From a bacterium (GTDB lineage: Bacteria; Patescibacteriota; Doudnabacteria; UBA920): 38,275 nt of DNA. Both the position numbers and the translations under genes were made by a program. Positions 3,706 through 33,635 of the stretch are shown here, piece after piece. Where the stretch lies: contig JAKAGU010000008.1 in the NCBI GenBank assembly GCA_021825655.1, positions 1 through 38,275 of the forward strand. The letters are read 5' to 3'. Numbering within the stretch: position 1 is the stretch's first letter; the number at the start of each line of letters is the position of its first letter. The notes below the pieces were generated by a model. That model saw only the letters and a list, made by a program, of their open reading frames with translations. It searched no databases and had not been told where the DNA came from.

Positions 3706-3717
3706 GCCAGCAAGCAT

Positions 3718-4821: not shown

Positions 4822-4849
4822 ACAGGCTAAATGAGTAAATAAAAACAAA

Positions 4850-5884: not shown

Positions 5885-5913
5885 GTGTGTTATAATAATT
5901 AAGTCCAAAAACT

Positions 5914-6375
5914 GTGCAATTTCCTGTCCCGCAATTTACCGAAGTCGAAGACAAAATTATCGGCCCGCTGACCTTAAAGCAGTTTGGCATTGTGTTTGGC
6001 GCAGGCATTTTAGTGTTTTTGGTCTATACGGTATCGGGGAAGAACCTGATTGCCGGCATTGTCGCCCTTTTGTTTTTCGGCCTGCCGGGGTTGGGTGTTG
6101 CCTTTGCCAAGATTAACGGCCGGCCTTTGTATAATTCCCTGAGCTATATGCTGGAGTTTATTTTCAGCCAGAAGGTGCTAATTTTCCACAAAGAAATCAA
6201 TTCGCACAGCTCTTCGTCCAAGGTGAAAAATGCTGAGGTAAAGTCGGCCACCCAGGTTGCGGCCTCGGCTAGTCCCCAAACCGTGGAAACCACGGAGAGC
6301 CGCATTAAAAAAGTTCACGAGCTGCTGCATAAAAAGGCCGAAGAAGAAGCGGACCTGGCTAAAAAAATCGAGTAA
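5914..6375 (+). CDS. PrgI family membrane protein
   Basis: MQFPVPQFTEVEDKIIGPLTLKQFGIVFGAGILVFLVY is typical of the PrgI family; sits immediately before VirB4 genes. Confidence 0.85.
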   Translation: MQFPVPQFTEVEDKIIGPLTLKQFGIVFGAGILVFLVYTVSGKNLIAGIVALLFFGLPGLGVAFAKINGRPLYNSLSYMLEFIFSQKVLIFHKEINSHSSSSKVKNAEVKSATQVAASASPQTVETTESRIKKVHELLHKKAEEEADLAKKIE

Positions 6376-6396
6376 AAATTTAATCTCCCTCTGTTT

Positions 6397-7083: not shown

Positions 7084-7110
7084 ATTTTATTTTTTCTTAG
7101 AAACAAAATT

Positions 7111-8958: not shown

Positions 8959-8962
8959 TGAA

Positions 8963-9035
8963 CAGATAGTAGCCGGCTTGTAGTTAGAAAAGGAGTTTTC
9001 CTAATACTAGCTACTATCTGCCGGCTACTTTTTAT
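8963..9035 (+). terminator. Attenuator/terminator-like structure with two mutually exclusive stems
   Basis: CAGATAGTAG (8963-8972)/CTACTATCTG (9011-9020), versus GTAGCCGG (8969-8976)/CCGGCTAC (9021-9028) followed by a T-rich tract. Confidence 0.55.
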
Positions 9036-9038
9036 TTT

Positions 9039-12000
9039 ATGGCAGAAGACGACTCCACAACCGCAGTCTTAGAACCGGCTGACGAAACGGCAGATACAGG
9101 CCGTGATTTGAACGCGCAAACACCGCCAGACCCGCAGCAGCCCGCGCCGCCGGATTCGGACACCAATTCCGATAAACAACAAAAATCTGCTTTCAGGCAA
9201 ATTCGCGTGGGCAAAGACAGCGCCTTTGTGGTTAACGGCCAGCAAGTGGCGCTTTTTGACGCCCCGACCAAAGCCAGGGCCAGGGCGGAAATTGTTTTAC
9301 CCGGCTATCATTTAAATATTTATGACCAGGTCTTTCTGAGGGTTGGCCAGAGCCGCTTTGCGCCGGTTAATCTGCACCGGGCTTACGGCGATACCGAGTC
9401 CATCAGTTTTAATCTGCCGGATTTTGACAAACTGCTCAAAGAAGGCGACCCGCTATGGATTGAGCTGGTTAGCAGCGCTTCGCCCGAAGCTAGCGGCACG
9501 CTTTTTCCCTATGTAATTTACACTCAGCAAAAAGAAGAAGAAGGCGGCGAGGCCGGCGGAGCGGAGTCGGCAGCCAAGAAAAGCAAAAAAACAGAAAGCG
9601 AAGAAAAGGCAGGCGCAGGCGCCGCCGGGGGTTTGGGGAGTCTGGCAGTGGCGGCCGGAGGCGAGGCTTTAAGCGGGGTATTGGGGTTGTCTTCAAACAA
9701 AGGCGATGCGGGCCAGAAACAGCTGCCCCTGAAGGATAGGCTGAAAGAGGCTTTGAGAAAAGGCGACCGAAAGGCGGTAAAAGAACTCATAGACGAAGCG
9801 AAAAAAAGCAAAGACACAAAGACATTAAAGGAGTTGTCCGGCGAATACATGGGCCCTGCCGAAAGGTACATGTTCGATGAGGCTCTAGGCGCTTTGGGCG
9901 TGTTGGATTTCAGTCCCCGCCCGGTTTCGGGCCCGGGGGTTGGACAGGCATCTGCCGGGGGCGGCGAGGCCGGCGGAGGGGAAGATGTTGTCTCGGCTGC
10001 TGGCGGCGGAGAAGCTGGACACGGGGTTGTTGCTCAGGGCACAACCACAGCTGCCCGCACCCTCAGCGAATCTTCAACGATTTCAGGGCGGCAAACTTTG
10101 AATGCTTCCGGCACAGCGGAAGTTTCTGCTTATGGGACCCAGAGCAGTACGGTATCCGGAAGCGTGTCAGCAAAAACTCAAGCAGAAGTATCAGGCAAGG
10201 TTGAGTCTAAGCAATCCGTAAACACCCAACAGACCATTAGCGGCCAAACGGGCGGTGGGCAAGTTGGCGCCAGGGTTTCTGTGCAGTCTGAAACTGAATT
10301 GGAACAGCAAACCGAAGATGAGGTAAAAGTGGCTGCCCAGGGCCAGACAGGCAGCAGGAGCGTTCAAGGCAAAACTGAAGTAACGAACCGGACCACAGCC
10401 CGAGTCGGCCAGGACGTAAAAAGTGCGTCCCCGCAACCGGAAATGGAAGCGGAGACTGAAGCAGAGGTGTCGGCCTCGGTTCCCGGAAACCGCACCGGGC
10501 CTGTTCCTAATGAGGCCGGGACGGTAAAAACTTCTGCGTTTAGCGATAAGCCCGGCCGCGCTGCAGGCGGCGGCGGGGCGGGCGTGCAGGCAACCATAAC
10601 GCAAGAAGCGGGCGAGGGCGGGCGCGGCCCCGCAGAAGCCAGTGTGACAGGCACAGCGCAGTACGGCATTCCACCTTTAAGCCAAGGTTCTACAATCAGG
10701 GCTGATATTCAAGTTCCGGGGTCCGCACCTTCCGGGGTTCGTGTAACCGCCAGTATGCCTAAGCCTTTAGGCCGGCCATCCGCTTTGCAAGGAAGGATTG
10801 AACAGGCGGGCGGCAAATCTGCTGCGGGCCGGCGCGACGGAGCAGGCATCCAAACAAGCGGAGAAGAGGAAATCGGGGCGCGGCTAAAAGAAAAAAGCGA
10901 AGGTCCAGAAGAAGATCAAGCCGTGCTCGCACAAATACCAGAAGAAGCCAAGCGGTTAGTTGCGACTTTCAAGGCCCAGTCCGCGGGCGGGAACGGCAAA
11001 AGGCCCGGGGCCGCCCCTAATCTAGGCAGGACGATCTCAGTTCCAACGGACGAAGAAGTTAGGGGGAAAGTCGGGGGGCCAGCAAAAACTCCGCCGCAGT
11101 CTGGGCAAAAAAGTCCGGGTTTGGACGGGGTTCAGCCAGCGGCTGCCCAGCCGGAATCGGAACCTGCGACACCGGACGGGAAAAATGGACCGCCTCGGGG
11201 CGTTGTCCGCGACAGGATTGCGGCCGGCGCCGGACAAGCGGCTAACGAGCTTGGCCGGGCGAATGAAGGCTTGGCGCCGGCGCTTCCGCCAAAAACAGAT
11301 GAGCAACCAGGGCAGGCGCCGGAACAGGAACCCGGCTTAGAGCCAGAGGCAGCGGCCCAGAAGGACGGGCAGCCGGGAGAAGCCGGATCCGCGGATGAAA
11401 AGCAGGAAAATGAAGAAGAGGCCCAAGCCCAGCAGCAACAGCAGGCTGCTCAGCAGCAAAACCAGATTGCTTCAGCCCTGCGCCAGGCCAAGCTGGATGA
11501 TGAGAGCCTAAAAAAAGTCACCAAAGATGCCAATGTAGCCTTGGATAAGTTTTTGATGGAGGGCGTGGAAATGGTGTGGGCCGGCGCGATTGAAACTTTC
11601 GGTCTGACGGTTTTGTTGGGTGCGATTATCGGCGACTTTTTGTGGATGTTTAAGAATTCCATTATTCGAGGGGTGCTCAAACCGCTGCTCAGAACCGAGT
11701 TTTTGAAAAGGAAAGCGGAGCAGATCGCCAAACAGATTAAAATTAGCATCAAGGTAAAATTGAATATCTTGGCTATGAATCTAATTGTAGCCGCGGCGGT
11801 GATGCTGGTGCTCTTTATTCTTTTCGTACTGCTGTGGGTCGGTTGCAATTATCCGCCGGGCATTACCCGTTTGAGTTACAGGTTTTCGGTTGTGGGGTTG
11901 GCAGGCGGCAGCAGTATTTGTCAGAGTTTGGACAGCGCCACCAGCGGGTTTACGGGTTTTGCGGGCGGAGATTCGGGCGGCGGCGGCGCCAGCGGTTCCT

Positions 12001-12413
12001 GGGCTTGCCAGGCGCTAACCTCAGGCGATGCCAGCGTACAGAATTTGTCCAACACCTGTTTTGGCGCCAACGCTTCCAAGGCCTCTGCCATTGCCGGCGC
12101 GGAGAGCGGCGGAGTTACCACCAGCGAGAGCAGCGTGGACAAATGCACGGTTGACGGCAGCGTGGTTTCTTTCGGCTTGTTTCAGATAAACATCAGCGCG
12201 CAGAACAACTTCGCCGGTCTGAACTGCCGGTCTGCTTTTGATAAGATGTATACCGCACAAACAAAAAACTGCCGTGTCATCAACAAGCCTCTTTATGACC
12301 AGTGCGTGGCCGCGGCCAAAGATGCCCAGAAAAATATCCAACAGGCCTGTCAGATATCCGGCAACGGCACGAACTGGAGCCTGTGGGGAGCCAATCAAAA
12401 ATGCGGATTCTAA
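9039..12413 (+). CDS. Large low-complexity membrane protein with C-terminal lytic transglycosylase (SLT)-like domain
   Basis: 1124 aa; N-terminal beta-like domain, about 500 aa Gly/Ala/Gln/Glu-rich region, two hydrophobic segments (ETFGLTVLLGAIIGDFLWMF; LIVAAAVMLVLFILFVLLWV), then AIAGAESGG...SFGLFQINI typical of SLT-like enzymes. Confidence 0.75.
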   Translation: MAEDDSTTAVLEPADETADTGRDLNAQTPPDPQQPAPPDSDTNSDKQQKSAFRQIRVGKDSAFVVNGQQVALFDAPTKARARAEIVLPGYHLNIYDQVFLRVGQSRFAPVNLHRAYGDTESISFNLPDFDKLLKEGDPLWIELVSSASPEASGTLFPYVIYTQQKEEEGGEAGGAESAAKKSKKTESEEKAGAGAAGGLGSLAVAAGGEALSGVLGLSSNKGDAGQKQLPLKDRLKEALRKGDRKAVKELIDEAKKSKDTKTLKELSGEYMGPAERYMFDEALGALGVLDFSPRPVSGPGVGQASAGGGEAGGGEDVVSAAGGGEAGHGVVAQGTTTAARTLSESSTISGRQTLNASGTAEVSAYGTQSSTVSGSVSAKTQAEVSGKVESKQSVNTQQTISGQTGGGQVGARVSVQSETELEQQTEDEVKVAAQGQTGSRSVQGKTEVTNRTTARVGQDVKSASPQPEMEAETEAEVSASVPGNRTGPVPNEAGTVKTSAFSDKPGRAAGGGGAGVQATITQEAGEGGRGPAEASVTGTAQYGIPPLSQGSTIRADIQVPGSAPSGVRVTASMPKPLGRPSALQGRIEQAGGKSAAGRRDGAGIQTSGEEEIGARLKEKSEGPEEDQAVLAQIPEEAKRLVATFKAQSAGGNGKRPGAAPNLGRTISVPTDEEVRGKVGGPAKTPPQSGQKSPGLDGVQPAAAQPESEPATPDGKNGPPRGVVRDRIAAGAGQAANELGRANEGLAPALPPKTDEQPGQAPEQEPGLEPEAAAQKDGQPGEAGSADEKQENEEEAQAQQQQQAAQQQNQIASALRQAKLDDESLKKVTKDANVALDKFLMEGVEMVWAGAIETFGLTVLLGAIIGDFLWMFKNSIIRGVLKPLLRTEFLKRKAEQIAKQIKISIKVKLNILAMNLIVAAAVMLVLFILFVLLWVGCNYPPGITRLSYRFSVVGLAGGSSICQSLDSATSGFTGFAGGDSGGGGASGSWACQALTSGDASVQNLSNTCFGANASKASAIAGAESGGVTTSESSVDKCTVDGSVVSFGLFQINISAQNNFAGLNCRSAFDKMYTAQTKNCRVINKPLYDQCVAAAKDAQKNIQQACQISGNGTNWSLWGANQKCGF

Positions 12414-20005: not shown

Positions 20006-21016
20006 TTAATTGCCGTTGCTGGGTTGGGTGGACGACGGGACGTATTGAGGTTCCGGTGTTTCTGGAATATAGCCGCTGCTGGCTGCGTTGGGGTCAATCG
20101 TGATTTCTGGCTCCGTAGTGGTGGAACCGCTTTCGTTCAGACTTTTTAAGGTAGAAGTAGAGGTGGTGGCCTTTTCTCCAGGGTCTATAGCAGGCGAGGT
20201 GCTGGCTGTGTCCTGATTTTGGACGCGGGTGTCATCAAGGCTGGATTTCTGGGTCTGCTTGATGTTTGATTTTTCCAGCTCGTTGGTTGCCACCTGGATG
20301 TAGTTATTAATGACTTTTGCGCTGGCTTCAACGTTGGCTGCCAGATCTTTAGAGGAATCGGCTTTCACTTCTTTGGCCAGTTTTTCTTGGTCAGTGGCAA
20401 TAGTCTCCAATGTTTTTACCAGGGTTTTGGTTTGTTGGGGGTTGAGGTCATTTTTTCCCGCAGCCGAGACTGCATCCAAAGTGTTTTTGGTCTGCTGCTT
20501 CAGTTCCTGGACCGCGGCCTGGGCGGTTTCCGGGCTGCTATCAGGGTTCTTTAGAATTTTTTCGGCGTCCAGCAATCTTTTTTTGCTGAATTCAACTTGC
20601 AGGGAAATTTTGCTTTCTTGCGAGCTGGCAAACTGGAGCTGGAGGTTTTCCGCTGTTTTTTTCACTGCAAACAAGGTTTGCCCCGGAAGGCTGTAATAAG
20701 CGGCATAACCCGTTCCGGCTACAGCAGAGAGGAATAGCGCCAAACTCATGCTAACTGTGGCCAGCCGGGAGAAGTGCAGCCACTGGTACCAGGCTGTCTT
20801 AACCGGGGCAAGCGCATATTTCCTGCGCATGGCAGGGGCAGGCACGGTTTTTTTCGGGAGTTGGGCAAGTTTCTGAGCTAACACCAGGTTTTCGGCCAAA
20901 TGTTCCTGTTCCGGTTGGCACTTTAAAACCGCTTCCTCCAGCGAGGCGCCGTTTTGGAGCTCAATCAGAGCTTGTTCAAAAATTTTGTCTAACTCTTTAT
21001 TCATCGTAATCTTCAA
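20006..21016 (-). CDS. DUF5667-like membrane protein, putative anti-sigma partner
   Basis: 336 aa; N-terminal cytosolic helical region, one TM, YSLPGQTLFAVKKTAENLQLQFA (DUF5667-like), Thr/Ser/Pro tail; overlaps the upstream sigma factor gene. Confidence 0.7.
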   Translation of the reverse strand: MKITMNKELDKIFEQALIELQNGASLEEAVLKCQPEQEHLAENLVLAQKLAQLPKKTVPAPAMRRKYALAPVKTAWYQWLHFSRLATVSMSLALFLSAVAGTGYAAYYSLPGQTLFAVKKTAENLQLQFASSQESKISLQVEFSKKRLLDAEKILKNPDSSPETAQAAVQELKQQTKNTLDAVSAAGKNDLNPQQTKTLVKTLETIATDQEKLAKEVKADSSKDLAANVEASAKVINNYIQVATNELEKSNIKQTQKSSLDDTRVQNQDTASTSPAIDPGEKATTSTSTLKSLNESGSTTTEPEITIDPNAASSGYIPETPEPQYVPSSTQPSNGN

Positions 21017-21581
21017 AAAGTTCTTTTAGTTTGGTAATTGCCCGGAACTGCGCTACCCGGACTGCGCCCTCTGACTTGTTGGTCAGCTGGGCAATGATTT
21101 CGTTGCTCAAGCCTTCAAAGAATTTCATCTTCAGTATCTGCCGGTAATCTTCGGGCAATTCTTTGAGCAGCTCGTTAAGGATTTTTTGCTGGTGGCTGAG
21201 TTCGAGTACTTCCAGGACAGCGTCGTCGTAGCTCAGGGTCTGTTCAATCTCTTTCAGCTCCACTAGTTCCTTTTTGCTGCGGTAATGGTCAATAATCAAG
21301 TTCCGGGCAATTTGGTAAAGCCAGGCTTCCAGGCTTTTGGCTTGTTTTATGCTGCCGAGCTTGGTATAGGCTTTCAAAAAAACCTCTTCAGCCATGTCTT
21401 CTGCCGTTTCTTTGTGGCTCACCCGGTAGTAGATGAAAGTGTAAATCCTCTTAAAAAAGAGGTTGTAAATTTCGCCAAAAGCCGCAGTTTCTCCTTTTTT
21501 AGCCTTAATTAAAAGGTTTTCCAAAAAAAGAGATTCTTTGAAAGAACTATTATCACTTATATAGACGTATGAACTGTTCAT
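20997..21581 (-). CDS. ECF-type RNA polymerase sigma factor
   Basis: 194 aa; region 2 (YTFIYYRVSHKETAEDMAEEVFLKAY), region 4 (LLKELPEDYRQILKMKFFEGLSNEIIAQLTNKSEGAVRVAQFRAITKLKE). Confidence 0.92.
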   Translation of the reverse strand: MNSSYVYISDNSSFKESLFLENLLIKAKKGETAAFGEIYNLFFKRIYTFIYYRVSHKETAEDMAEEVFLKAYTKLGSIKQAKSLEAWLYQIARNLIIDHYRSKKELVELKEIEQTLSYDDAVLEVLELSHQQKILNELLKELPEDYRQILKMKFFEGLSNEIIAQLTNKSEGAVRVAQFRAITKLKELFEDYDE

Positions 21582-21680: not shown

Positions 21681-22619
21681 TCAGAGAGTGGTGATAGGGC
21701 GCGACTGGGTAATATAGAAGCGGCCTTTTTCAAATGCCCACTCAATATCCTGGGGATGGTTGTAGTGGTTTTCAATGCGCTTGCAGATTTCGGCCAGTTC
21801 TACAATTTGCCGGCCCGCAAGCTTTTGTTTGCCGCCCTGGCTTGCGGAAAGTTTCTTGTTGAGGTTGCCTTTGGGGGTTTTGACAATGGCAAATGCCTGT
21901 TGGGACACGTTGATATCCAAAATGGAAAAATCATCCTTGTGGACGATGTAGGTATCCGGGGTAACCATGCCCCCGACAATGGCTTCGCCCAGGCCAAAGC
22001 CGGCTTCCAGCACCATTTGGTTGTAGTCTTTGGTGACGGGATGAACAGTGAAAGCAATGCCGGAAATTTCCGACTGCACCATTTTTTGCACCACCACGGC
22101 CACCGATACCTTGGTCTTGTGAAGTTTTTTTTCAAAGCGGTAAAAAATTGCCCGGGGCGTAAAGAGAGAGGACCAGCACTTTAAGACGTGCTTAATTACG
22201 TCTTTCTCCGTGACGTTTAGGTAGGTTTCCAGCTCTCCGGCCCAGGAGGCGGTCTTGGAATCCTCGGAAGTGGCGGAGGAGCGTACGGCCACGAATTTGC
22301 TTTTCAGTTTTTTAAAATCCGTCAAGATTTCTTTTTGCAGATCCGCGGGCATTTTAGTTTTGGCAATAATGGCGCGGATTTCGTTGGAAGCGCGGTCCAC
22401 GGTGTTTAAGTCTTTTTTATTGACTTCTTTCAGGCGAGCTTCAATTTCCACATCTAAAGCGGTTTCTTTTAAAAAACGGTCAAAAGCCGCAGCCAGGACC
22501 ACAAAACCCGGAGGCACCTGGAGTCCGGCCTTAGTCATTTCACCCAAAGAGGCGCCCTTGCCGCCGGCAACCGCTACATCGTTTTTGGAAAGGTCTTTGA
22601 AGTTTTTGGTATAGCTCAT
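21681..22619 (-). CDS. Stand-alone PEP synthase/rifampin phosphotransferase-type ATP-grasp domain protein
   Basis: 312 aa; GGKGASLGEM, VAVRSSATSEDSKTASWAGELETYLNV, GFGLGEAIVGGMVTPDTY, QSRPIT; ends where the ATP-binding domain of RPH/PpsA ends. Confidence 0.9.
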   Translation of the reverse strand: MSYTKNFKDLSKNDVAVAGGKGASLGEMTKAGLQVPPGFVVLAAAFDRFLKETALDVEIEARLKEVNKKDLNTVDRASNEIRAIIAKTKMPADLQKEILTDFKKLKSKFVAVRSSATSEDSKTASWAGELETYLNVTEKDVIKHVLKCWSSLFTPRAIFYRFEKKLHKTKVSVAVVVQKMVQSEISGIAFTVHPVTKDYNQMVLEAGFGLGEAIVGGMVTPDTYIVHKDDFSILDINVSQQAFAIVKTPKGNLNKKLSASQGGKQKLAGRQIVELAEICKRIENHYNHPQDIEWAFEKGRFYITQSRPITTL

Positions 22620-22621
22620 TT

Positions 22622-22936
22622 TTAAAAGTTAATTATGCCGGTTTCGGCGTTTAGCTCAACCAATTGTCCGTCTTTAATGTCGCGCGTAGCGGTTTGGGTG
22701 CCGACAATACAGGGGATGTCGTGTTCGCGTGAAATCAGTGCGGCATGGCTGGTCAGGCCGCCATGGTCAGTGATGATGCCGGAAATTTTCCCCGCCACTT
22801 TAATAATTGCGGCATTGCCTTGCTCTAAAACCAAAATGTCGCCAGAAGCAACTTTATCCAGGTCGGCTTCCTGTCCCACTATTTTTGCCAGGCCTTTTGC
22901 GTAGCCCTTGTTCCCCACAGTGCCTTGTAACTGCAT
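22622..22936 (-). CDS. Stand-alone PEP-utilizing enzyme mobile (phosphohistidine swivelling) domain protein
   Basis: 104 aa; GDILVLEQGNAAIIKVAGKISGIITDHGGLTSHAALISREHDIPCIVGTQ. Confidence 0.88.
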   Translation of the reverse strand: MQLQGTVGNKGYAKGLAKIVGQEADLDKVASGDILVLEQGNAAIIKVAGKISGIITDHGGLTSHAALISREHDIPCIVGTQTATRDIKDGQLVELNAETGIINF

Positions 22937-22941
22937 GATGG

Positions 22942-24408
22942 TTAACTAATTTTTCTGACAATGCCTTGGTTGGCATCCACCTCTATTATATCACCGTTTT
23001 TAAAAATTTTGGTAGCAATCTTGGTGCCGATGAGGCACGGCTTTTTCATTTCCCGGGCCACAATGGCCGCATGCGAGGTGATGCCGCCGTGATCGGTTAC
23101 AAAGGCGTTTGCCCGGTACATGGCAGGCAGGAAATCGGGATTTGTAGAGATGGCAACCAAAATATCGCCGTGCTGGACTTTTGGCAAATCCTTGGCGCTA
23201 AAGACCAGCCTGGCCTTGCCCATAGCCCTGCCCAAAAAAGCGGCCTGGCCTTTGAGCTCGTCGGAGGCTTCTATTTTTTCTTCAATCACCGAGATTTTCT
23301 TAAATCGTAGGGCTTTTCCCTTGCTTAGGAAAGTTCTGCTTTTCGACGTAATATACTCAAAGACGTATCGGGTACGGTCGCGGATTTTTTTCACATCAAC
23401 CTTTTTCCCCTGAGCAAGCCTGAGGATTTCCTCCCGGGTGGAGAACTGGAAGATTTTTGGGCTAAGTTTAAGCCTGGCGCTTAATTCCGCAAACAGGTTG
23501 TCGCAAATGAAGGAAAAATAATGCCTGACACTAACGCGGTAAATTTTTAGGTATGTAAAATTTCTGGCTGCGGCAAACAATAACCTTTCCTTTTTATTGA
23601 GGCCTAGTGCAATTTCCGCCTTTTTTCTTTTTGCCTCAATCTTTTTAAGGAAGTCCGCATGCTCGGATAATTGGGCTTTGGGACCGTTCTTCTGCCCGTA
23701 AATTTTTTTTAGCCGTTCAACAAAATCTTTAAAAGTGCTTAGCGGACCTTGGTAGCCGTAATTCAGCCAAGCGTATTTTTTTGCATGGCGTATAAGTTCA
23801 GGATGTTTTAGGGCAGCTTTAAAGCTTTTGATTTTTGCAGCAATCGCCAGTAAATCCTTCTGCTCCTGCCAAAAGAGGGTTACGTGTTCCGGGGTTATTA
23901 GGCTGTTTAAAACGTCCTGGATTTTTTCCTGGCCGACATTATGGAGTCTCAAAATAGCAAGCAGCTTGTTAGTCAGCAGATTATGGTCGTAATCGCTTAA
24001 AACCGGAATGCTGCCCAGCGCGTTTAACTCCAGATACAGAGGCCAGAGTTTTTTCAGCCAGCCAGCCATTTGTTTTAGGCTGGTTTTTTTCAAATCAGCT
24101 TTTTCCGCTTCCCGGCAAATGCGGTTAATTTTTCGGCCTTGGAGCTTATGCTGTTTTTCTAATTTTTTTACCGACAAGCTGCCGTCCTGAAGTTTTTTTA
24201 GGCAGGCGGCGCCAAGCGCATTCCAGTTTTCAAGGTCAAACCCATAGCGGCCGCTGTTGTTGCGGATTTCCTGAAACCCGCAGGTAAAACCCAAGCCCAA
24301 GTGCCTTTTAACCGTGGGTAAATGCATAAAGCCGTCGGCAATAGCCGCCCAGCCGTGGTAGTTGATATTGGTTTCTTCTATTAGAATTTTTATCGAATGG
24401 GGTTTCAT
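22942..24408 (-). CDS. Tandem paralog 6: helical N-terminal domain plus C-terminal phosphohistidine domain
   Basis: 488 aa; C-terminal ITSHAAIVAREMKKPCLIGTKIATKIFKNGDIIEVDANQGIVRK. Confidence 0.85.
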   Translation of the reverse strand: MKPHSIKILIEETNINYHGWAAIADGFMHLPTVKRHLGLGFTCGFQEIRNNSGRYGFDLENWNALGAACLKKLQDGSLSVKKLEKQHKLQGRKINRICREAEKADLKKTSLKQMAGWLKKLWPLYLELNALGSIPVLSDYDHNLLTNKLLAILRLHNVGQEKIQDVLNSLITPEHVTLFWQEQKDLLAIAAKIKSFKAALKHPELIRHAKKYAWLNYGYQGPLSTFKDFVERLKKIYGQKNGPKAQLSEHADFLKKIEAKRKKAEIALGLNKKERLLFAAARNFTYLKIYRVSVRHYFSFICDNLFAELSARLKLSPKIFQFSTREEILRLAQGKKVDVKKIRDRTRYVFEYITSKSRTFLSKGKALRFKKISVIEEKIEASDELKGQAAFLGRAMGKARLVFSAKDLPKVQHGDILVAISTNPDFLPAMYRANAFVTDHGGITSHAAIVAREMKKPCLIGTKIATKIFKNGDIIEVDANQGIVRKIS

Positions 24409-25904
24409 AGTTTTTTGACAATTCCTTTTTGGGCATCCACCAAAATTCTGAGGCCGTCTTTCAGGAATTTACTGGCAATTTTTACGCCCACCACGCAGGG
24501 AATTTTTAATTCGCGCGAGACTATAGCGGCATGGCAGGTCAAGCCGCCTTCGTCGGTCACGATGGCTGCGGCCTGGCGGATGGCAGGCATCAGGTTGGGG
24601 TTAGTGGTTTGCGCCACCAGGATGTCACCGCGGCACATTTTTCCCATTTCTTTGGGCGTGTTTATAATCTTCACTGTGCCTTTAATTTTTCCCGGGTATG
24701 CAACTGTGCCCGCGGCTTCCGCTACGTTGAGGTTGAGCTTTTCTTGTTTGATGTTGGCTTTTAGGTAGAGGGCCGCCTGCTTGCCGCTTAAGCATTTGGT
24801 GGTTTGTGCGCGCTCAAGGTAAACAAGCTCGGCCCGCTGGTTTAAGAGGTTGGTCTTGGTCTGTTTTGTTTTCAGGGCATGCTCCACTTCTTTGGCCAGC
24901 ATCAGGCGTACCTGGGACAGGCTTAGGTCCAGTCTTTTGCCTATGGCTTTAAGCACGGCTTCCATATAGTAATAAGAACAGCTTTGCAGTTCGCGGCGCA
25001 GGGCTTTATAAAACACCCCGTCCCGCGCGAGCAGGACTATTTTTCGCTCGTAAGGGCTGAGGCCCAAATTTTCAAGCAGCTGCTTTTGTTGTTTTGCCAG
25101 CAAGACTTTTTCGGCTGCGTGTCCGGTCAGGTCTTTGCGGGGGTTGGTATTTTTTTCGGTCAGGTCTTTAAGCAGCTCGGCAAAATATACAGGGCTTGCA
25201 GCTGGACCCTGGTAGACATAATACACCCAACAGAATCTTTTGACGTGCGTGTTGAATGCGGCGTAAAGTTTCTTGTCGGCCTCTGCAAGTTTCGCTAGAA
25301 AATCTTTGGCAGGCAAACGCCGCAGCAGCTTGTGCAGGGCAGGTTTTTGCCTGATGCGCGCGTAGAGCTTTAGCAGCGCCAGTTCCTGCCTTTTAACATT
25401 TGTTTCTTGGAGGGGGGTGGTAAGCAGGTTGAAAAAATTATCCTTGCCGCGTTTTTTTAGTATGGCGTGGAGCTCGTCGCTGAGGAAGGTTGTTTCCTGG
25501 TAGTCCAGGAGGGGGAGCATGAGCCCGTAGCCGTATGCTTGGGTGTTTAGGGAAACAAATTTTTGGTAAAAGCCGTTCAGTTTTCTATTGCTGGCATCAG
25601 CAGCTTGTTTTGCGGCCTTTTTGGCAAAAATTATCTGTAGTTTGCCGGATTTTTCCATTTCCCGGTAGATGTTGCGGAGAAATTCGGGCCTGGCCTGGAT
25701 TTTTTTAACCAAAGCAAGGTGTCCCTGTTTCCAGTTGCGCGGCTTAAAGTACCAGACAATAGCCTCATCTTCAATCTTGAGAGCAATGTTAACCGGAACC
25801 CCCAGCCATTTTTGGGTGCCTTGAAAGAGGCCTTCGGGCAGCATGTAAGTGGGGAAGAGGGAAACTACGTATTCGTTTGCGAATTGCGACCACTTTTCAT
25901 TCAT
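24405..25904 (-). CDS. Tandem paralog 5: helical N-terminal domain plus C-terminal phosphohistidine domain
   Basis: 499 aa; C-terminal LTCHAAIVSRELKIPCVVGVKIASKFLKDG; 4-bp overlap with the next gene. Confidence 0.85.
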   Translation of the reverse strand: MNEKWSQFANEYVVSLFPTYMLPEGLFQGTQKWLGVPVNIALKIEDEAIVWYFKPRNWKQGHLALVKKIQARPEFLRNIYREMEKSGKLQIIFAKKAAKQAADASNRKLNGFYQKFVSLNTQAYGYGLMLPLLDYQETTFLSDELHAILKKRGKDNFFNLLTTPLQETNVKRQELALLKLYARIRQKPALHKLLRRLPAKDFLAKLAEADKKLYAAFNTHVKRFCWVYYVYQGPAASPVYFAELLKDLTEKNTNPRKDLTGHAAEKVLLAKQQKQLLENLGLSPYERKIVLLARDGVFYKALRRELQSCSYYYMEAVLKAIGKRLDLSLSQVRLMLAKEVEHALKTKQTKTNLLNQRAELVYLERAQTTKCLSGKQAALYLKANIKQEKLNLNVAEAAGTVAYPGKIKGTVKIINTPKEMGKMCRGDILVAQTTNPNLMPAIRQAAAIVTDEGGLTCHAAIVSRELKIPCVVGVKIASKFLKDGLRILVDAQKGIVKKL

Positions 25905-27379
25905 AGCTTTTTGACAGTGCCTTTGTCGGCGTTAATTTCCACCAGCTCACCGTCTTTAAAATTTTCCATGGCTTTGGCTAACGCAACCACACAGGGGATG
26001 CCGAATTCCCTCGAAACCACGGCCGCGTGGCAGGTGAGTCCTCCAACCTCGGTTACAATAGCCGCCGCCCGTTTCATTGCCGGTAAGTAGTCGGTGGTAG
26101 TGGCGTAGGTAAATAGGATGTCGCCTGTTTTTACCTTGTGGTTTTGCTGCGGTGAAGAAACCAGGCGCGCCTTGCCCCGGGCTTTGCCCGGGCTGGCGCA
26201 GGTTCCTTGGGACTCGTTTCCGCCCTGCACGGGTTTTACGTAGCTTTCAATGTATCTGAAGAGTTTTTCGCTTTCCGATTCCGTAAAATTAATACGGCGT
26301 GAGAAGTTTCGGCTAAAGCCCCAGCCGATAAAGCGTCTTCTTTTGGCCAGAATTTTTTGGGGATCGGTTCTGCCCAAAACGGAATCCAGCATCTCTTTTT
26401 CAGTAAGGCAGCGCGCCTGGGTGGTGGTTAAATACAGCCTGCGGGCGATCTCTTTGTATAACGGCAGAAGGTAGTAGCCGCCGAAACCGACAAAATATTC
26501 CGCTTCGTTGCGGGTGTCGATGGCCAAGCCAAAATCCAAAAAAATTTGCAGGTCCCTGGAGTTAAGGTTGTATTGCCCGGTAACCTCGGCCAGTTCTTTG
26601 TTGCGCAGCCGTGCGTAGTTTTGGAGTTTTTGGTATTCCATTTTTAATGACTTAAGCGGCCTGGCCGCGGTTTGCTTTAGCTCGTTTTCGTAGTGGTGGG
26701 TCTGCCAGGGCTCGCCAAAGCAAAAGACCGGCAAAAAACCGAATTGTTTTGCCAATTTTTTGGAGGCCGACTTGAGCGTATCGCGCTTTTCTTTAAGTTC
26801 TATTGCAGCCCTGATTACAGCCTTTTTTTCCAGCAGGGTTGTGGAGATTCTTTCCGGCTTTGTTAAGGTGAACAGTACTCGATTATATTCCGGGGAGTTT
26901 TTTTCCAGACCGAGCTTTTTAACCAGCACCTTTTCCATTTTTGGCGTCCAGTATTCCTCCGCCAGCCAGCTAAACTGGTCAAAAATCGCCAAATGGTGGA
27001 TGCGGTCACGGATGCGGAAGAAATTTTGTACCAGCTGCCGGTTGGTCTGCTTTTGCGGTTCCGGATATTTTTTTGCCGCTATTTTTTTGGCATGTTCCGC
27101 CAAAGGGTAAAAACTTCTGAGTTTTTTGGACAGGGCGCGGTAGTCGGTGCGGTTAATGTTATCTATTTGGCTGTGGAGCAGGCGCAGATATTTTTTGGTG
27201 ACATAGGCGTGCTGAAAGCCGGTTTTGAATTCATACAGCAGCATAGATTCTTTGGGAATGCCGAACAGCCGCTTGAAATAACGCGAGGTATATTCTCCGT
27301 GCCAGGTCTCGCAGTCGCCCGGAGTTAGGGACCACACGCCCATTTTTACCACCGGACTTTTGAAATAATGGTTGCTCAT
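25901..27379 (-). CDS. Tandem paralog 4: helical N-terminal domain plus C-terminal phosphohistidine domain
   Basis: 492 aa; C-terminal LTCHAAVVSREFGIPCVVALAKAMENFKDGELVEINADKG; 4-bp overlap with the next gene. Confidence 0.85.
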   Translation of the reverse strand: MSNHYFKSPVVKMGVWSLTPGDCETWHGEYTSRYFKRLFGIPKESMLLYEFKTGFQHAYVTKKYLRLLHSQIDNINRTDYRALSKKLRSFYPLAEHAKKIAAKKYPEPQKQTNRQLVQNFFRIRDRIHHLAIFDQFSWLAEEYWTPKMEKVLVKKLGLEKNSPEYNRVLFTLTKPERISTTLLEKKAVIRAAIELKEKRDTLKSASKKLAKQFGFLPVFCFGEPWQTHHYENELKQTAARPLKSLKMEYQKLQNYARLRNKELAEVTGQYNLNSRDLQIFLDFGLAIDTRNEAEYFVGFGGYYLLPLYKEIARRLYLTTTQARCLTEKEMLDSVLGRTDPQKILAKRRRFIGWGFSRNFSRRINFTESESEKLFRYIESYVKPVQGGNESQGTCASPGKARGKARLVSSPQQNHKVKTGDILFTYATTTDYLPAMKRAAAIVTEVGGLTCHAAVVSREFGIPCVVALAKAMENFKDGELVEINADKGTVKKL

Positions 27380-28962
27380 AGTTTTTTGATTGTGCCCTTG
27401 GTGGCGTCTACCTCCACCAAGTCGCCGTCTTTCAGGATGTGCAGGGCGTGTTTACAGCCGACCACGCAGGGGGTCTGGAGTTCGCGGGCTACAATGGCCG
27501 CATGGCAGGTAATGCCGCCGTCTTCGGTGATTATAGCCGCCGCCTTTTTCATAGCCGGAACCAGGGAAGGAAAAGTGGTGTGGGAAAGCATTATGTCGCC
27601 CGGATTCATTTTACCCATTTCATCGGGTACATTGATGACGCGGACAGTGCCTCTGGCAGTGCCGGGGCAGGCGCAGGTGCCGGCCAGTTCGTTGGTCCGA
27701 ATGATTTTTATTTTCTCAAAGTTTTGCTTTTTCAAAAAAACTTTTGCTTTTTGGCCCGTGTAGACCGTAATGCCCTTTTCGGTCCAGTTCTTTTTCAAAG
27801 CAAGGTAATTTTTTGGCGTACGGGCGTAAATGACCGAGAATCTTTGCCTTTCATTTACGATTCCCGAAAAATCCTTGCCTGACAGCGCCTTGGGCAGTTC
27901 GGAAGGCAGCAGGTATTTGGTTTGGAGCACGGAAAGCCCGCTTCGCCTGCCGATTTCCTTAAGTAGCTGGTCCATAACGTAAAAACCGTGAAAATAGGTT
28001 TCTTTCCTAAAACCCTTGAGCCAGACTATGTCTGCGGCAATTTTGAACCAGTGCTTTTCCGAAACATTCAATTTTAGCTGTCTAATCAGTTCAGTTTTTT
28101 GTTTTTGTACGTCTTGGGCCCGGCTTTCCAGTTCTTCAAGCCTTTTTTGCGGGTCAAAATTTTCCTTGAGGAGGCCCCGCCAGGTTTCCAGGTAGTAGTC
28201 CAGGCCGTAAGCTGGGCCGATGTAGGTGTAGGGGAGCCAGCAAAAATCGTAGTGGTGTTTTTGAATGATTTTTATCCAAGCTTTGGGCAGTTGGTGCAGG
28301 TTCTTTACTGCGCTACCCGGAGTCTGGCTTTCCAGCCACAGCCTTAAAGACACGGTGTTGTTCATCCAGGAGAGGATTTTGAGCGATGCTTTTTCTTCCT
28401 TGGCGGTAAAAGATTCCGCCTTGGGGGTGGATAGTACGCTAAAGGCCAGGGCCGGCTCAATAGGCAGGCCCAGTTTCTGTATCCTCTCTTGGAGCAGGTT
28501 GGTAAGCTTTTTGCTAAAGTCTTCTCCGTCCGAATCTAAATACCAGGTGGTAGGCAGGGCCCAGCAGTGGCTCAGGAATTGCAGATTGAAAAGCTTTTTT
28601 TGCCAGGCAAGCAGCTGTTTGTCGGTCAGTTTGGAAAATTGCAGCCGCCTCATTTTTAAAGCGAGGCGGTAGTAATCCCAGTTGAGCTTAACGGCTTTTT
28701 GGTGGATTTTGTCTACCTTTTTCGGCTGTTCGAAAATTGTTTTTACGGTGGATTGTACGATTTCCCGGAGTTCGTGCTGCAGAAAGTAGGTGCCGGTGTT
28801 GTCCAGGTTTTCTATGACCCAAATGCACTGGGTAATTGGGTTAAAACCGATGGTTAAAAAATTTAACCCCCCAAACCCCGGCATGGTCTCTACGGGCAGG
28901 TTAAAATCCACCCTTCGGATATCAAAGTTTTTTCGCCAAATATTTTTAGGTTTTTTCGCCAT
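27376..28962 (-). CDS. Tandem paralog 3: helical N-terminal domain plus C-terminal phosphohistidine domain
   Basis: 528 aa; C-terminal ITCHAAIVARELQTPCVVGCKHALHILKDGDLVEVDATKG; 4-bp overlap with the next gene. Confidence 0.85.
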   Translation of the reverse strand: MAKKPKNIWRKNFDIRRVDFNLPVETMPGFGGLNFLTIGFNPITQCIWVIENLDNTGTYFLQHELREIVQSTVKTIFEQPKKVDKIHQKAVKLNWDYYRLALKMRRLQFSKLTDKQLLAWQKKLFNLQFLSHCWALPTTWYLDSDGEDFSKKLTNLLQERIQKLGLPIEPALAFSVLSTPKAESFTAKEEKASLKILSWMNNTVSLRLWLESQTPGSAVKNLHQLPKAWIKIIQKHHYDFCWLPYTYIGPAYGLDYYLETWRGLLKENFDPQKRLEELESRAQDVQKQKTELIRQLKLNVSEKHWFKIAADIVWLKGFRKETYFHGFYVMDQLLKEIGRRSGLSVLQTKYLLPSELPKALSGKDFSGIVNERQRFSVIYARTPKNYLALKKNWTEKGITVYTGQKAKVFLKKQNFEKIKIIRTNELAGTCACPGTARGTVRVINVPDEMGKMNPGDIMLSHTTFPSLVPAMKKAAAIITEDGGITCHAAIVARELQTPCVVGCKHALHILKDGDLVEVDATKGTIKKL

Positions 28963-28965
28963 AAA

Positions 28966-30396
28966 TCAATTTAACTTTCTTACTGTTCCCAAGTTGGCGT
29001 CCACTTCCACCAAGTCGCCGTCTTTTAAGACTTTCGTGGCGATTTTAGTCGCCACGACGCAGGGGATGCCTAGTTCTCGGGCAATTATGGCTGCGTGCGC
29101 CGTAACGCTGCCTTCATCGGTTACCAGGGCTCTGGCTTTCCTAATGGCGGTAATAAAATCTTGCCTGGTCATGGTTGCCACTATAATATCGCCTGACTTA
29201 ACCTTATTTAAGTCCTTGTTGGTATAGAGAATTTTTACAGTCCCTTTGGCACGGCCGGCAGAACCGACTGTTCCTTTAATAATACTGCTGGTTTGTTTTT
29301 TTGCCCAGCTTAATTCTTTTCTGGCTCTGTGGATGGCGGTTTTGCCGGAAAAAATGTTTGCCTTGGCTTTTTTTTGGATCAGCAAAAAACTTTTTTCCCT
29401 TCTGAAAATCTCATTGGCAGCAAAAGCCACCCCCTTTTTTAAATGACGGATTATCTCCTCGTCTGTCAAAAGTGTCGTCTGGTAGAGGTTAAGTTTTAAC
29501 CTGTGGCCGATTTCGGTATATAGCTTTTTTAACTCCATGTTTAACTGCTGGCGGATTTTGTCGCGGTAATCCCTTAGAGCTACGTTGTCCTTTAAGAACA
29601 GAAGCAGAAGTTTAAAGTTTTTGGAGGGTTTTAGGACTTTCAGCGCTGTTCTGAAGTTTTTTTGTCTGTCGCGAAATGTTTTTTGGATTTTTTGCAATTC
29701 CGCCCCGGGGTTCCTTAGCTTGCCGATTTCCCTCAGAAAGTGCTGTTCGTTATAAGGTTCGTGGTCAATATCATAGACGGGAATATGGCGGTATTGCTTG
29801 GTGTGGCGCAAGATTTCCTTGAAAAAGGCGTTGGGGCTTAGTTTGTCTTTTTTTAAACTTAGCCTCAGGATGTCTTTTCTTTCCCTCAGCACGTCATTGG
29901 GCTCTAAAGGGGAAGAGAGCGAGAGCAAGTACGCGGTTTTTTGTTCAGGGGCCAGGGGATAAGTGTCTAGTTTGTCTTTTACCACATTGGCCAGAGGTTC
30001 GCCGATATTGAATACGGTCCACATTTCAACATAAAATCGTGCTTGGCGGGGGAGGGTGAAGTTTTGGTAAAGATCAAGCAGTTTTTCATTACTCAGCTTT
30101 TCGAGCCCTTTTCCAAAGCGCGCTTTGACTTCCTTTAAAATGTTTTCCAAATCGGCCTGGGCCTGGGCGTGGAAGGTTTTTAGGAATTTTTGGTTTTGGA
30201 GCAGTCGGTACAGCCCGGTCACATATTTCTGGTGCTGCTTTGAATCCACGTAATATTCGGTCTTTTTTCCGTCATAAAACACTAGGGTATCAGACACTTG
30301 CAAGCCATAATTTTTTTTCATGGCTTCGCCCCAGCCAAAGTTCCAGGCCTCAGCAACCTGCACGGCTAACCTTCTGGTGACGTATTTTGACCACAT
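28966..30396 (-). CDS. Tandem paralog 2: helical N-terminal domain plus C-terminal phosphohistidine domain
   Basis: 476 aa; C-terminal VTAHAAIIARELGIPCVVATKIATKVLKDGDLVEVDANLG. Confidence 0.85.
   Translation of the reverse strand: MWSKYVTRRLAVQVAEAWNFGWGEAMKKNYGLQVSDTLVFYDGKKTEYYVDSKQHQKYVTGLYRLLQNQKFLKTFHAQAQADLENILKEVKARFGKGLEKLSNEKLLDLYQNFTLPRQARFYVEMWTVFNIGEPLANVVKDKLDTYPLAPEQKTAYLLSLSSPLEPNDVLRERKDILRLSLKKDKLSPNAFFKEILRHTKQYRHIPVYDIDHEPYNEQHFLREIGKLRNPGAELQKIQKTFRDRQKNFRTALKVLKPSKNFKLLLLFLKDNVALRDYRDKIRQQLNMELKKLYTEIGHRLKLNLYQTTLLTDEEIIRHLKKGVAFAANEIFRREKSFLLIQKKAKANIFSGKTAIHRARKELSWAKKQTSSIIKGTVGSAGRAKGTVKILYTNKDLNKVKSGDIIVATMTRQDFITAIRKARALVTDEGSVTAHAAIIARELGIPCVVATKIATKVLKDGDLVEVDANLGTVRKLN
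28993..29034 (+). repeat. 42-bp exact direct repeat, copy A (second copy at 30434-30475)
   Basis: GTTGGCGTCCACTTCCACCAAGTCGCCGTCTTTTAAGACTTT present in both paralog C-terminal coding regions. Confidence 0.85.
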
Positions 30397-30406
30397 GGGT
30401 GTTGGA

Positions 30407-31900
30407 TTATGATAGTTTTCTGACTATGCCTTGGTTGGCGTCCACTTCCACCAAGTCGCCGTCTTTTAAGACTTTTGTGGCAATTTTGGTGCCAATCACG
30501 CACGGCACGCCCAGTTCGCGTGAGACAATGGCCGCGTGCGAAGTAATGCCGCCCTGTTCGGTTACAATTGCTGCGGCTTTTTTCATGGCCGGCACAATAT
30601 CCGGATCCGTGGCAATGGAAACCAGAATGTCGCCTTTCTCGAATTTGGCCATATCTTCGGCACGGATGACGATTTTCACCCGGCCTTTGCCATAACCCGG
30701 ACAGCCGGTCTGGCCGTGAAGCTGCGTGACGTTGTGGTCTACTTTTCTTTCCGTTTGTTTGGCCAGTTTTTCAGCTGCTTCGCCCGTGTAAATTTTTTCA
30801 AAGTTTTTTTCCGTAAGGTAAACGCAGAACTTGGTGCGTTCGTGCAGGTCATTGGGGGCCTTGCCGGTTTTTATCAGGGTATTAACTTCGGAGGGGAGCA
30901 TAAATCGGATCTGCATTAGAGACAGGCCGTGGCGGCGGGCGATTTCCTTAAGTACAAATTCCATTTTATAGAGCATGTAAATTTGGCCGTAGCGCCGGTA
31001 GATCTTGGTTATCATGAATCCGCCCCATTGGTCCAATATGGTTTTCCACGCGCCCTTAATGCCAAGTTTTTTTATAAGCGCTTCCCGTTTGGTTATTTCT
31101 TCTTTGAATTTTGTTTTAATGTCTGCCAGCTGTTTTGCCGGCGAACCCTCGCTTAGGATTCTTTTTACCTCGGCTTGGTAGTAGGCGTAATCGTAAACGC
31201 CCTGGGTGCCCAAAAACAGGTATTTGGTCCAATAGTATTTTTTATAATGCGCTTTAAGCAGTTTTTCCGCAGTGGGACTTAGTTTTTTATTGTTCGTTTC
31301 AGCCAAAGCGGCAATCTTGAGTAGCTCTTCCTGCTCGGTCTGGATGGGGGATTTGGTTTCCGGGCTGGTTAGGGTAACCAGGTCGGGGTTGATTTGTTCT
31401 TCGGGAACGCCCAGTCCCCTTAGGTATTCTTTGAGCCGGTTGGTCAGGTTGTTATGGAACATGTCGCCGGCCACAGGGATCCAGCCCCATTCGTAGCGGC
31501 CTAAGTGCACTTGGGTGTGTTCGTTATAGAGCGCGAGCAGCTGCTTGTCCGAAAGGTTTTTTATTTTTTCCGCAGGGATTTTTTTGCCCAGAGCCAGCAT
31601 CTGTTTATACCAAACCATACATTCTTTGTTGACCTTTTCGGTGAATTTCGGTTCTTTCAGGAATTTTTTGGCCACAGCTTCGCCAACTTCAAAGGAATCT
31701 TTTTCGCCAAAGTAAAACCATTGGTGGTAGCCGCGGTAAACGCTTAAGACTTTTTTGTACGCCCGGCCCGTTTGCCGGTGAAAAAGGTTGGTAAAGCACC
31801 ACATCCAGACGCGCGAGAAAAACAGGTCAATATCCGGGATGTCTTCTGCTAAAAGCCAGGGGTCTTTGTCTTTAAGGAATTTGGGTGATTTTTGTTGCAT
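30407..31900 (-). CDS. Tandem paralog 1: helical N-terminal domain plus C-terminal phosphohistidine domain
   Basis: 497 aa; C-terminal ITSHAAIVSRELGVPCVIGTKIATKVLKDGDLVEVDANQG; first gene of the array. Confidence 0.85.
   Translation of the reverse strand: MQQKSPKFLKDKDPWLLAEDIPDIDLFFSRVWMWCFTNLFHRQTGRAYKKVLSVYRGYHQWFYFGEKDSFEVGEAVAKKFLKEPKFTEKVNKECMVWYKQMLALGKKIPAEKIKNLSDKQLLALYNEHTQVHLGRYEWGWIPVAGDMFHNNLTNRLKEYLRGLGVPEEQINPDLVTLTSPETKSPIQTEQEELLKIAALAETNNKKLSPTAEKLLKAHYKKYYWTKYLFLGTQGVYDYAYYQAEVKRILSEGSPAKQLADIKTKFKEEITKREALIKKLGIKGAWKTILDQWGGFMITKIYRRYGQIYMLYKMEFVLKEIARRHGLSLMQIRFMLPSEVNTLIKTGKAPNDLHERTKFCVYLTEKNFEKIYTGEAAEKLAKQTERKVDHNVTQLHGQTGCPGYGKGRVKIVIRAEDMAKFEKGDILVSIATDPDIVPAMKKAAAIVTEQGGITSHAAIVSRELGVPCVIGTKIATKVLKDGDLVEVDANQGIVRKLS
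30434..30475 (+). repeat. 42-bp exact direct repeat, copy B (first copy at 28993-29034)
   Basis: Identical to 28993-29034. Confidence 0.85.
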
Positions 31901-31925
31901 AAATTAGGGGATTTTTAGTATTTCC

Positions 31926-31934
31926 ATCATAGCA
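31926..31934 (-). promoter_or_regulatory. Possible extended -10 promoter for the phosphohistidine array
   Basis: - strand TGC-TATGAT upstream of 31900; no clear -35. Confidence 0.3.
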
Positions 31935-31955
31935 ATTATTTGTTAAAGGGGTGTA

Positions 31956-31984
31956 TTGACAAAAGGCTTAAAAAGTGATATAAT
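31956..31984 (+). promoter_or_regulatory. Consensus sigma70 promoter for the histidine phosphatase gene
   Basis: TTGACA (31956-31961), 17-bp spacer, TATAAT (31979-31984): perfect consensus. Confidence 0.85.
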
Positions 31985-32179: not shown

Positions 32180-32779
32180 ATGAAGCGACTTTACTACTTC
32201 CGCCATTCGTCGAAAGACGGGGCAAACAACACTCTCGGCCCCAAGGGCCTGGCGCTGGCTCGAAAGGTTGGCGACTGGCTCTATGACGCCGAAGAAGAGT
32301 TGGAGTTCGATCGTGTCTTTCATGGCACACTTGTCAGGACGGCGCAGACCGCCCTGGCTTTCACCGCCGGGTACGGCGCTGTGGGCGACATCATGCCCGT
32401 GGTGCCCGAGATCGGCAACGACGCTCTCTTCTCCCAGATGGTGGACCCTTCGCAATTCCGAACACTCGCATCGGCCATGGGGAACTTCAAAGCCCTATTC
32501 CAGTGCCACGACAGCGAGGTAATCAGCTCGTGGATTGCCGAAGCCAGTCTCGCCGTCGTCAACATGTTCAGCGCAATGGAAGACGGCGAGACGGGTGTGG
32601 CTTTCGGCCACAGCCCGATGATCGAGCTGGCGCTGGCAAAGGTCCTGGGTACCACCGAGCTGCCGGAAGAGTATCTGGTGTTCGGCGACATGGAGGGCGT
32701 GGAACTTCAGCAGGAAGAAGGAGGGGCCATCGAAGCCATCCGCAAGATTTCCATGCCCGCTTCCGAACCCGCAGCCTGA
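32180..32779 (+). CDS. Histidine phosphatase superfamily (SixA/phosphoglycerate mutase-like) protein
   Basis: Start set to ATG 32180 with AAGGAG Shine-Dalgarno; LYYFRHSSKDG (RH catalytic motif), HGTLVRTAQTA, GHSPMIELAL. Confidence 0.78.
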   Translation: MKRLYYFRHSSKDGANNTLGPKGLALARKVGDWLYDAEEELEFDRVFHGTLVRTAQTALAFTAGYGAVGDIMPVVPEIGNDALFSQMVDPSQFRTLASAMGNFKALFQCHDSEVISSWIAEASLAVVNMFSAMEDGETGVAFGHSPMIELALAKVLGTTELPEEYLVFGDMEGVELQQEEGGAIEAIRKISMPASEPAA

Positions 32780-33023: not shown

Positions 33024-33635
33024 TTACAGGGTTGTAAGTTTTTTAAGCGCCTGCAAGAATTGGGCGAAGTTTTTATATAAGATTGTCCGGGCTCCCATTT
33101 GTTTGGGGGCTTTAAGGTTACTGGCCTGGTCGTCAAAGTATGCAATTTCAGCGGGTTTGACATTGAACCTTTTGCATAAAAACTCCATTGTTTCCCGGCT
33201 GGCTTTGGGCAGACCATATTCCCAGGTATTGATTAGGTTTTTGCCAAAAACCTTTTTTAGTTCCGGAAATTTTTTGTTAACGTCCCGGAATTGTTCACGG
33301 GTATTTTTGCTTAAAAGGGCTACCGTATAATGCTTTTTTAGTTTGGTAGCCAGTCCGAGCACCTTGGGGTTGGTTTTCATCAGGCCGTAATGTATGCGCT
33401 TAAGCTGCTCCACAGACAGGGGTAATTCCAGTTCCTGTATGGCTTTTTGCCAGGCAACTTTTTGGCTAATCTGCTTTAGCGCGGCCTGGCTAAAGTATTT
33501 TGCATATAGAATATTTTGAACAACCTGCCAGTTTTTGTGGTATTTTTTGGCTAAGTATTTGGAAGTGTTAGGGTAGCCTTCGTTTAAGCAGACGCCATAG
33601 GCATCAAGCACTATCAGTTTGATTTCGTAATTCAT
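33024..33635 (-). CDS. HAD superfamily hydrolase
   Basis: 203 aa; LIVLDAYGVCL (motif I), LLSKNT (motif II), YFDDQASNLKAPKQMGARTILY (motif IV). Confidence 0.8.
   Translation of the reverse strand: MNYEIKLIVLDAYGVCLNEGYPNTSKYLAKKYHKNWQVVQNILYAKYFSQAALKQISQKVAWQKAIQELELPLSVEQLKRIHYGLMKTNPKVLGLATKLKKHYTVALLSKNTREQFRDVNKKFPELKKVFGKNLINTWEYGLPKASRETMEFLCKRFNVKPAEIAYFDDQASNLKAPKQMGARTILYKNFAQFLQALKKLTTL

Follow-up and report, generated by a model that had tools for sequence, protein, structure and literature searches.

A phosphohistidine acceptor array in Patescibacteriota and DPANN archaea in which one ATP-grasp protein appears to serve many sister enzymes

Introduction

How are seven phosphohistidine swivel domains charged, and what do they phosphorylate, when the operon that encodes them has a single ATP-grasp gene? 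The question is raised by a DNA stretch of 38,275 nucleotides, here called the window (positions 1–38,275 of contig JAKAGU010000008.1, assembly GCA_021825655.1), from a bacterium of the lineage Patescibacteriota; Doudnabacteria; UBA920. At 21681–31900 it holds a lone ATP-grasp gene, a gene for a free swivel domain and six genes for larger paralogs, here called acceptors P3 to P8, in which the swivel domain is preceded by a domain resembling the substrate domain of rifampin phosphotransferase (RPH). Among very small bacteria of the symbiont type, and in some very small archaea, one ATP-using protein seems to charge 6–18 such sister enzymes, each of which probably passes the phosphate to a different small molecule. 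We put at about 70 % the probability that the array is a multi-substrate, 'hub-and-spoke' two-component small-molecule dikinase of this kind. The array is real, conserved and wider than first noted.

Results

Open reading frame (ORF) calling returned eight genes, all on the minus strand and exactly where a preliminary description of the window had placed them. They are listed with the main evidence for each, including the ratio of nonsynonymous to synonymous substitution rates (dN/dS) against a congener and the support of ortholog clades, in one case from the Shimodaira–Hasegawa-like approximate likelihood ratio test (SH-aLRT).

21681–22619, minus strand: lone PPDK_N/RPH-type ATP-grasp protein, 312 aa (Pfam PPDK_N, E 4e-99; catalytic residues; dN/dS 0.05)
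22622–22936, minus strand: free swivel (phosphohistidine) domain, 104 aa, motif GGLTSHAAL (PEP-utilizers, E 9.5e-21; dN/dS 0.09)
22942–24408, minus strand: acceptor P3, RPH-like substrate domain plus swivel domain, TSHAA (ortholog clade, SH-aLRT 99)
24405–25904, minus strand: acceptor P4, TCHAA (orthologs in Falkow- and Veblenbacteria; clade includes the archaeal locus L096)
25901–27379, minus strand: acceptor P5, TCHAA (ortholog clade support 100)
27376–28962, minus strand: acceptor P6, TCHAA (ortholog is the first module of an archaeal fusion, E 8.5e-55)
28966–30396, minus strand: acceptor P7, TAHAA (orthologs in the congener)
30407–31900, minus strand: acceptor P8, TSHAA, the most widespread type and the first gene of the array (35 loci; AlphaFold2 model; Foldseek)

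Neighbouring genes are separated by 2, 5, 3 or 10 bp or overlap by 4 bp (three junctions), as had been described. The six paralogs measure 476–528 aa each. Pfam PEP-utilizers matches the C-terminus of all six as well as the 104-aa protein (E 1e-20 to 6e-27), while no convincing Pfam match was found for the N-terminal ~370–420 aa of the paralogs. The histidine motif (TSHAA, TCHAA or TAHAA) is intact in all seven swivel domains, which agrees with the earlier reading. The free swivel gene adjoins the ATP-grasp gene also in the congener (locus L056) and in L047/L106. Other free swivel domains, of ~110 aa, were seen at L047 8873–9205, L131 7028–7360 and G026:C3:21908–22234; some such genes adjoin an ATP-grasp gene and some are distant from any array.

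Of the eight swivel domains in the 838-kb genome, seven are encoded in the 10 kb of the array; the eighth lies within a complete phosphoenolpyruvate (PEP) synthase on a different contig. Gene order is conserved in the congener, and dN/dS is 0.05–0.13 for the six genes covered (ATP-grasp, free swivel, P3, P4, P6 and P7; P5 was excluded because dS was saturated, and P8 was not included). The clustering of the swivel domains, the conserved order and the low dN/dS thus argue that the array is not a product of chance or decay. The N-domains of the other five acceptors are only 20–25 % identical to that of P8, and such strong divergence is what duplicated, decaying or non-functional genes might show. 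This explanation is nevertheless refuted by the dN/dS values and by the histidine, which is retained in all of the ~105 listed swivel domains that reach the site; the ortholog groups are moreover retained across families and phyla, and the probability left to decay is negligible.

The free-standing ATP-grasp protein has an intact nucleotide site. On an alignment to the RPH of known structure, RPH-Lm, with positions counted by hand, its residues K21, R113, T132, E293, Q305 and R307 correspond to Lys22, Arg117, Thr136, Glu297, Gln309 and Arg311, so that the catalytic residues whose loss would have spoken against the preliminary description are present. For the acceptors, an AlphaFold2 model of P8 was built from an alignment of 93 sequences and reached a mean predicted local distance difference test score (pLDDT) of 95.7 and a predicted template modelling score (pTM) of 0.91. 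In a Foldseek search of the PDB its top matches were all RPH-Lm (5fbt, E 8e-13, 585 alignment columns). Sequence similarity between P8 and PEP synthase ends at the swivel domain. Because the best structural matches are all RPH-Lm, we name the acceptors, on the basis of this model, RPH-like substrate domain plus swivel proteins. Pfam domain makeup and fold match both bear out the view that an RPH-like chain is cut here after the ATP-grasp domain. Of the catalytic residues Arg666, Glu667 and Lys670 in the substrate domain of RPH, HMMER aligned the first with position 299, in a weak alignment of 16 % identity; 92 % of 93 acceptors have Lys or Arg there, and R302, R323, E338 and R355 are also conserved among the acceptors. 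Short acceptors of ~350 aa were considered as a separate family and rejected as such, since several match a broad profile over portions of this N-domain but lack one stretch.

A PEP synthase of the ordinary kind that had been split, its middle domains duplicated, would also combine separate ATP-grasp and swivel parts, and both of these domains do score best against PEP synthase models. Its TIM barrel, PEP-utilizers_C, is however absent from all eight array proteins in the Pfam search, in which PPDK_N and PEP-utilizers were both found; the source genome has its complete PEP synthase elsewhere, six array genomes lack any PEP-utilizers_C match, and the N-domains of the acceptors have the RPH fold according to the model. 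The missing barrel refutes the split enzyme, which we regard as extremely improbable.

The genome-wide counts, derived from family searches, carry the proposal that one donor serves many acceptors. Six genomes of 82–98 % completeness (G026, G034, G036, G040, G042 and G088) have one PPDK_N domain each and 9, 10, 7, 6, 7 and 8 swivel domains, respectively. No PEP-utilizers_C domain was found in them by the family searches, nor any alternative donor for the histidines, whether another ATP-grasp of the PPDK_N family, an Enzyme I or a PEP synthase. Genome G314 has 19 swivel domains against two PPDK_N domains, of which one sits inside its PEP synthase and one away from the main array, on another contig. 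A free ATP-grasp frame of ~320–337 aa was also seen in three DPANN genomes whose acceptors are few or unlinked.

A fusion protein points in the same direction. On the Nanoarchaeota contig L088 (a single contig of a single metagenome-assembled genome, MAG), a frame of 1389 aa at 4374–8543 consists of an acceptor (GGMTCHAA), a second acceptor (GGITSHAA) and an ATP-grasp domain, in this order. By sequence, the first module belongs to the P6 type (E 8.5e-55), and a tree groups it with the P6 clade; the second has P4 as its closest type (E 3.6e-33) and stands at the base of the P4 clade. Two different kinds of acceptor are thus joined to a single ATP-grasp domain in one protein. The earlier suggestion of one ATP-grasp subunit for several acceptors thus gains support, at the level of sequence, from the single-ATP-grasp genomes with 6–10 acceptors and from this fusion. 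RPH-like single-chain kinases (ATP-grasp plus swivel) were also seen beside free short acceptors, at L070 3–1424 and L071 3970–6369, and are possibly intermediate between fused and split forms.

The eight genes described earlier belong to a larger unit, which also takes in a histidine phosphatase and a HAD (haloacid dehalogenase) protein upstream. The features of this region are:

31917–31984, both strands: back-to-back promoter-like sites (consensus match only)
32180–32779, plus strand: divergent array-specific histidine phosphatase, 199 aa (invariant RH...R...HSP; fold; 9 of 9 copies beside arrays)
33024–33635, minus strand: HAD-superfamily protein of an array-linked family, motif DxYGV (Pfam Hydrolase, 2e-10)

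The phosphatase gene starts at the ATG at 32180, with an AAGGAG ribosome-binding site just upstream; a longer ORF from 32123 is unlikely to mark the true start. Residues R8, H9, R53 and H144, the core of branch 1 of the histidine phosphatase superfamily, are invariant in the family. The window protein alone falls under the Pfam cut-off (17.3 compared to 21.7 bits), which its relatives exceed. Its model (pLDDT 92.6) matches histidine phosphatases in the PDB (E 8e-8), namely phosphoserine phosphatase (PSP), PhoE and CobC, with SixA lower at rank 34. It is not a SixA equivalog by TIGR00249 (16.1 bits against a cut-off of 74.5). The family occurs in 8 of 49 genomes of the order; these 8 all belong to the 21 acceptor-bearing genomes (hypergeometric p 4.5e-4), and all nine copies in the order adjoin acceptor genes; the profile used was built from array-adjacent members and is biased towards these, but close relatives away from the arrays would still have been seen at E ≤ 1e-8. 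Acceptors also repeatedly have a member of a second phosphatase family as neighbour, in four cases next to the same short acceptor type, and the 77 genes interspersed in arrays include 16 His_Phos_1, 6 HAD and 3 HD matches. Relatives of the HAD protein, which on sequence grounds is a probable accessory hydrolase, overlap acceptor genes by 4 bp at five loci (L042, L045, L047, L049 and L051), and the gene order HAD–phosphatase–P8 is common to the window, G034 and G003.

Between the phosphatase gene and P8, a perfect TTGACA-17-TATAAT on the plus strand (31956–31984) faces the phosphatase and TTGTCA-16-AATAAT on the minus strand (31962–31935) faces P8. These overlapping promoter-like sites possibly place phosphatase and array under shared control. 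An Rfam search of the leader for a riboswitch or RNA element returned tRNAs only.

The tie between histidine phosphatases and arrays could also fit a protein phosphorelay with a regulatory role, in which the acceptors carry phosphohistidine to partner proteins and a SixA-like phosphatase resets the histidine, as SixA does on the phosphocarrier NPr (PMC7948535). The free swivel domain resembles a carrier, the phosphatase has a weak match to SixA, and VadK, a histidine kinase derived from PPDK and autophosphorylating, interacts with enzymes of the methylcitrate cycle (PMC13400623). We nevertheless consider a phosphorelay unlikely: the acceptor N-domains share, by the model, the fold of a small-molecule-binding domain, the phosphatase model is closer to the metabolite phosphatases than to SixA, and a conserved partner protein shared by all acceptors was not found.

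The array is also found elsewhere in the order and the phylum, although patchily: ~44 of 380 sampled genomes of the phylum have near full-length acceptor matches. Each acceptor of the window is closer to orthologs in other genomes than to its own paralogs, and a quick tree supports the clades P3, P4, P5, P6 and P8. Thirty-five loci carry the P8 type; they lie in groups of the candidate phyla radiation (CPR), namely Doudna-, Falkow-, Kerfeld-, Magasanik-, Veblen-, Peregrini- and Parcubacteria, and in DPANN archaea. As judged from the sequences, the ortholog groups are ancient and spread over CPR bacteria and DPANN archaea. Lone archaeal P8 orthologs adjoin unrelated genes, e.g. for RtcA and aminoacyl-tRNA synthetases, and therefore no pathway can be named from their neighbours.

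What appears to be one and the same array locus is present in a Gammaproteobacteria MAG (L087) and in a Magasanikbacteria MAG (L097); misbinning of the contig is probable for L087 and may also apply to L092 (Ignavibacteriales) and L105 (Deltaproteobacteria). Some arrays contain further genes. At L057 7953–10245, a SLOG-type (LDcluster4) protein and a nicotinate phosphoribosyltransferase-like protein are encoded between the acceptors and the ATP-grasp gene, and a conserved protein of ~220–240 aa lies between acceptors at L056 7168–7821 (this copy without a Pfam match) and L057 5375–6097.

Patchiness and expansion would suit inactivation of xenobiotics, a special case of the hub-and-spoke dikinase in which each acceptor would have its own antibiotic or host toxin to phosphorylate, in the way RPH phosphorylates rifampin. 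RPH is the nearest solved fold, two APH-family phosphotransferases are among the interspersed genes, and rph-like matches have been reported in CPR, most of them in Microgenomates (PMC8651080). Dedicated phosphatases beside the acceptors would however undo such inactivation, and the conservation of the P8 type, at 35–46 % across CPR and DPANN phyla, is more like that expected for a housekeeping substrate. No relative was found on viral contigs and PADLOC gave no match, on which grounds a phage or defence origin was rejected. We consider inactivation improbable.

Discussion

By the proposed mechanism, the lone ATP-grasp protein would bind ATP, dock transiently and phosphorylate the histidine in the swivel domain of every one of the six acceptors, and that of the free swivel domain. 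The beta-phosphate would go to the histidine, with release of AMP and inorganic phosphate, as in RPH, PpsAB and HpeHI; this step in trans is suggested by homology and gene counts. Each acceptor's swivel domain would then return to the divergent helical domain, RPH-like in fold, on the same protein and give the phosphate to the ligand of that domain, by analogy with the RPH/HpeH fold. In this way one kinase could serve up to 18 specificities. The ligands are presumed to be small molecules because of the acceptor fold and the type of the linked phosphatases; protein targets are possible. The histidine phosphatase and the HAD protein may reverse the transfer, acting on the phospho-ligand or on stray phosphohistidine. 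A plausible physiological role would be the trapping or activation of host-derived metabolites.

Several points weigh against this mechanism. The whole dataset consists of MAGs. The source genome also has a complete PEP synthase, whose ATP-grasp domain the acceptors could therefore in principle borrow. The catalytic Glu667 of RPH is not conserved in the acceptors, and the equivalence with Arg666 depends on the weak alignment of 16 % identity. The HAD family mostly has Tyr in place of the second Asp of motif I (DxYGV), so that its phosphatase activity is uncertain.

The closest known systems in architecture are the two-component small-molecule dikinases HpeHI, CreHI and PpsAB (phenylphosphate synthase), in which an ATP-grasp protein phosphorylates the histidine of a separate RPH-like substrate/swivel protein, which then phosphorylates a phenol; the complex is transient. 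HpeHI is inactive once its histidine is mutated, and a stable complex was not detected for it (PMC12167813). This precedent makes the proposed mechanism likelier and the novelty smaller. These systems have one donor and one acceptor subunit, whereas array genomes have one donor and 6–18 divergent acceptors: the window has a 1:6 ratio and, in addition, a free swivel domain, and the single-ATP-grasp genomes range from 1:6 to 1:10. The known enzymes act on phenolic substrates and lie among catabolic genes; no aromatic-catabolism genes were seen in the window. The free swivel domain and the linked phosphatases are likewise features of the arrays, unlike HpeHI, CreHI and PpsAB.

RPH-Lm (5fbt/5hv1) has the same parts, ATP-grasp, substrate domain and C-terminal swivel, and is the closest solved fold for the acceptors. 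It is, however, a single chain for a single substrate class, whereas in the array the chain is cut and its second half multiplied. The RPH order on one chain is not seen, since the array genes are separate and the archaeal fusion runs acceptor–acceptor–ATP-grasp. PEP synthase and PPDK have homologous ATP-grasp and swivel domains, together with the PEP/pyruvate barrel that the array lacks. VadK (Rv1127c) is likewise derived from PPDK, autophosphorylates on histidine and has taken a new role, but is a single gene, and its abstract mentions no acceptor family (PMC13400623). The phosphotransferase system (PTS; EI/HPr/EIIs) is analogous in that one general phosphoryl donor serves several substrate-specific histidine proteins. 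Its donor is PEP, whereas ATP is expected for the array; no EI barrel was found in the six array genomes, and the acceptors are soluble RPH-like enzymes, not transporters.

The preliminary description knew of no system with this layout. For the split this does not hold, the two-part enzyme being already known; for the one-to-many dikinase array it stands, no description having been found in the literature searched. Mechanistically, the one-to-many layout would be a new variant of the recently recognised two-component dikinases. If the proposal is true, symbiont-type bacteria and archaea with genomes below 1–2 Mb devote up to ~20 kb to a modular kinase family, in which specificity is set by swappable acceptor subunits and one subunit does all the ATP chemistry. 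Small-molecule kinases would thereby be organised on a new principle, with a logic comparable to that of the PTS. The ~100 uncharacterised acceptors, which score only as PEP synthase fragments, would then have a testable activity, and the array may reveal what these organisms take from their hosts.

Two further gene groups were observed in the window. Directly downstream of the ATP-grasp gene (20006–21581) are genes for an extracytoplasmic function (ECF)-type sigma factor and a DUF5667 protein, a pair that stays beside the array in L056, L057, L059, L061 and L069. Type IV secretion/pilus-like genes, including one for a TraG/VirB4-type ATPase (7111–8958), occupy 136–12413 on the plus strand.

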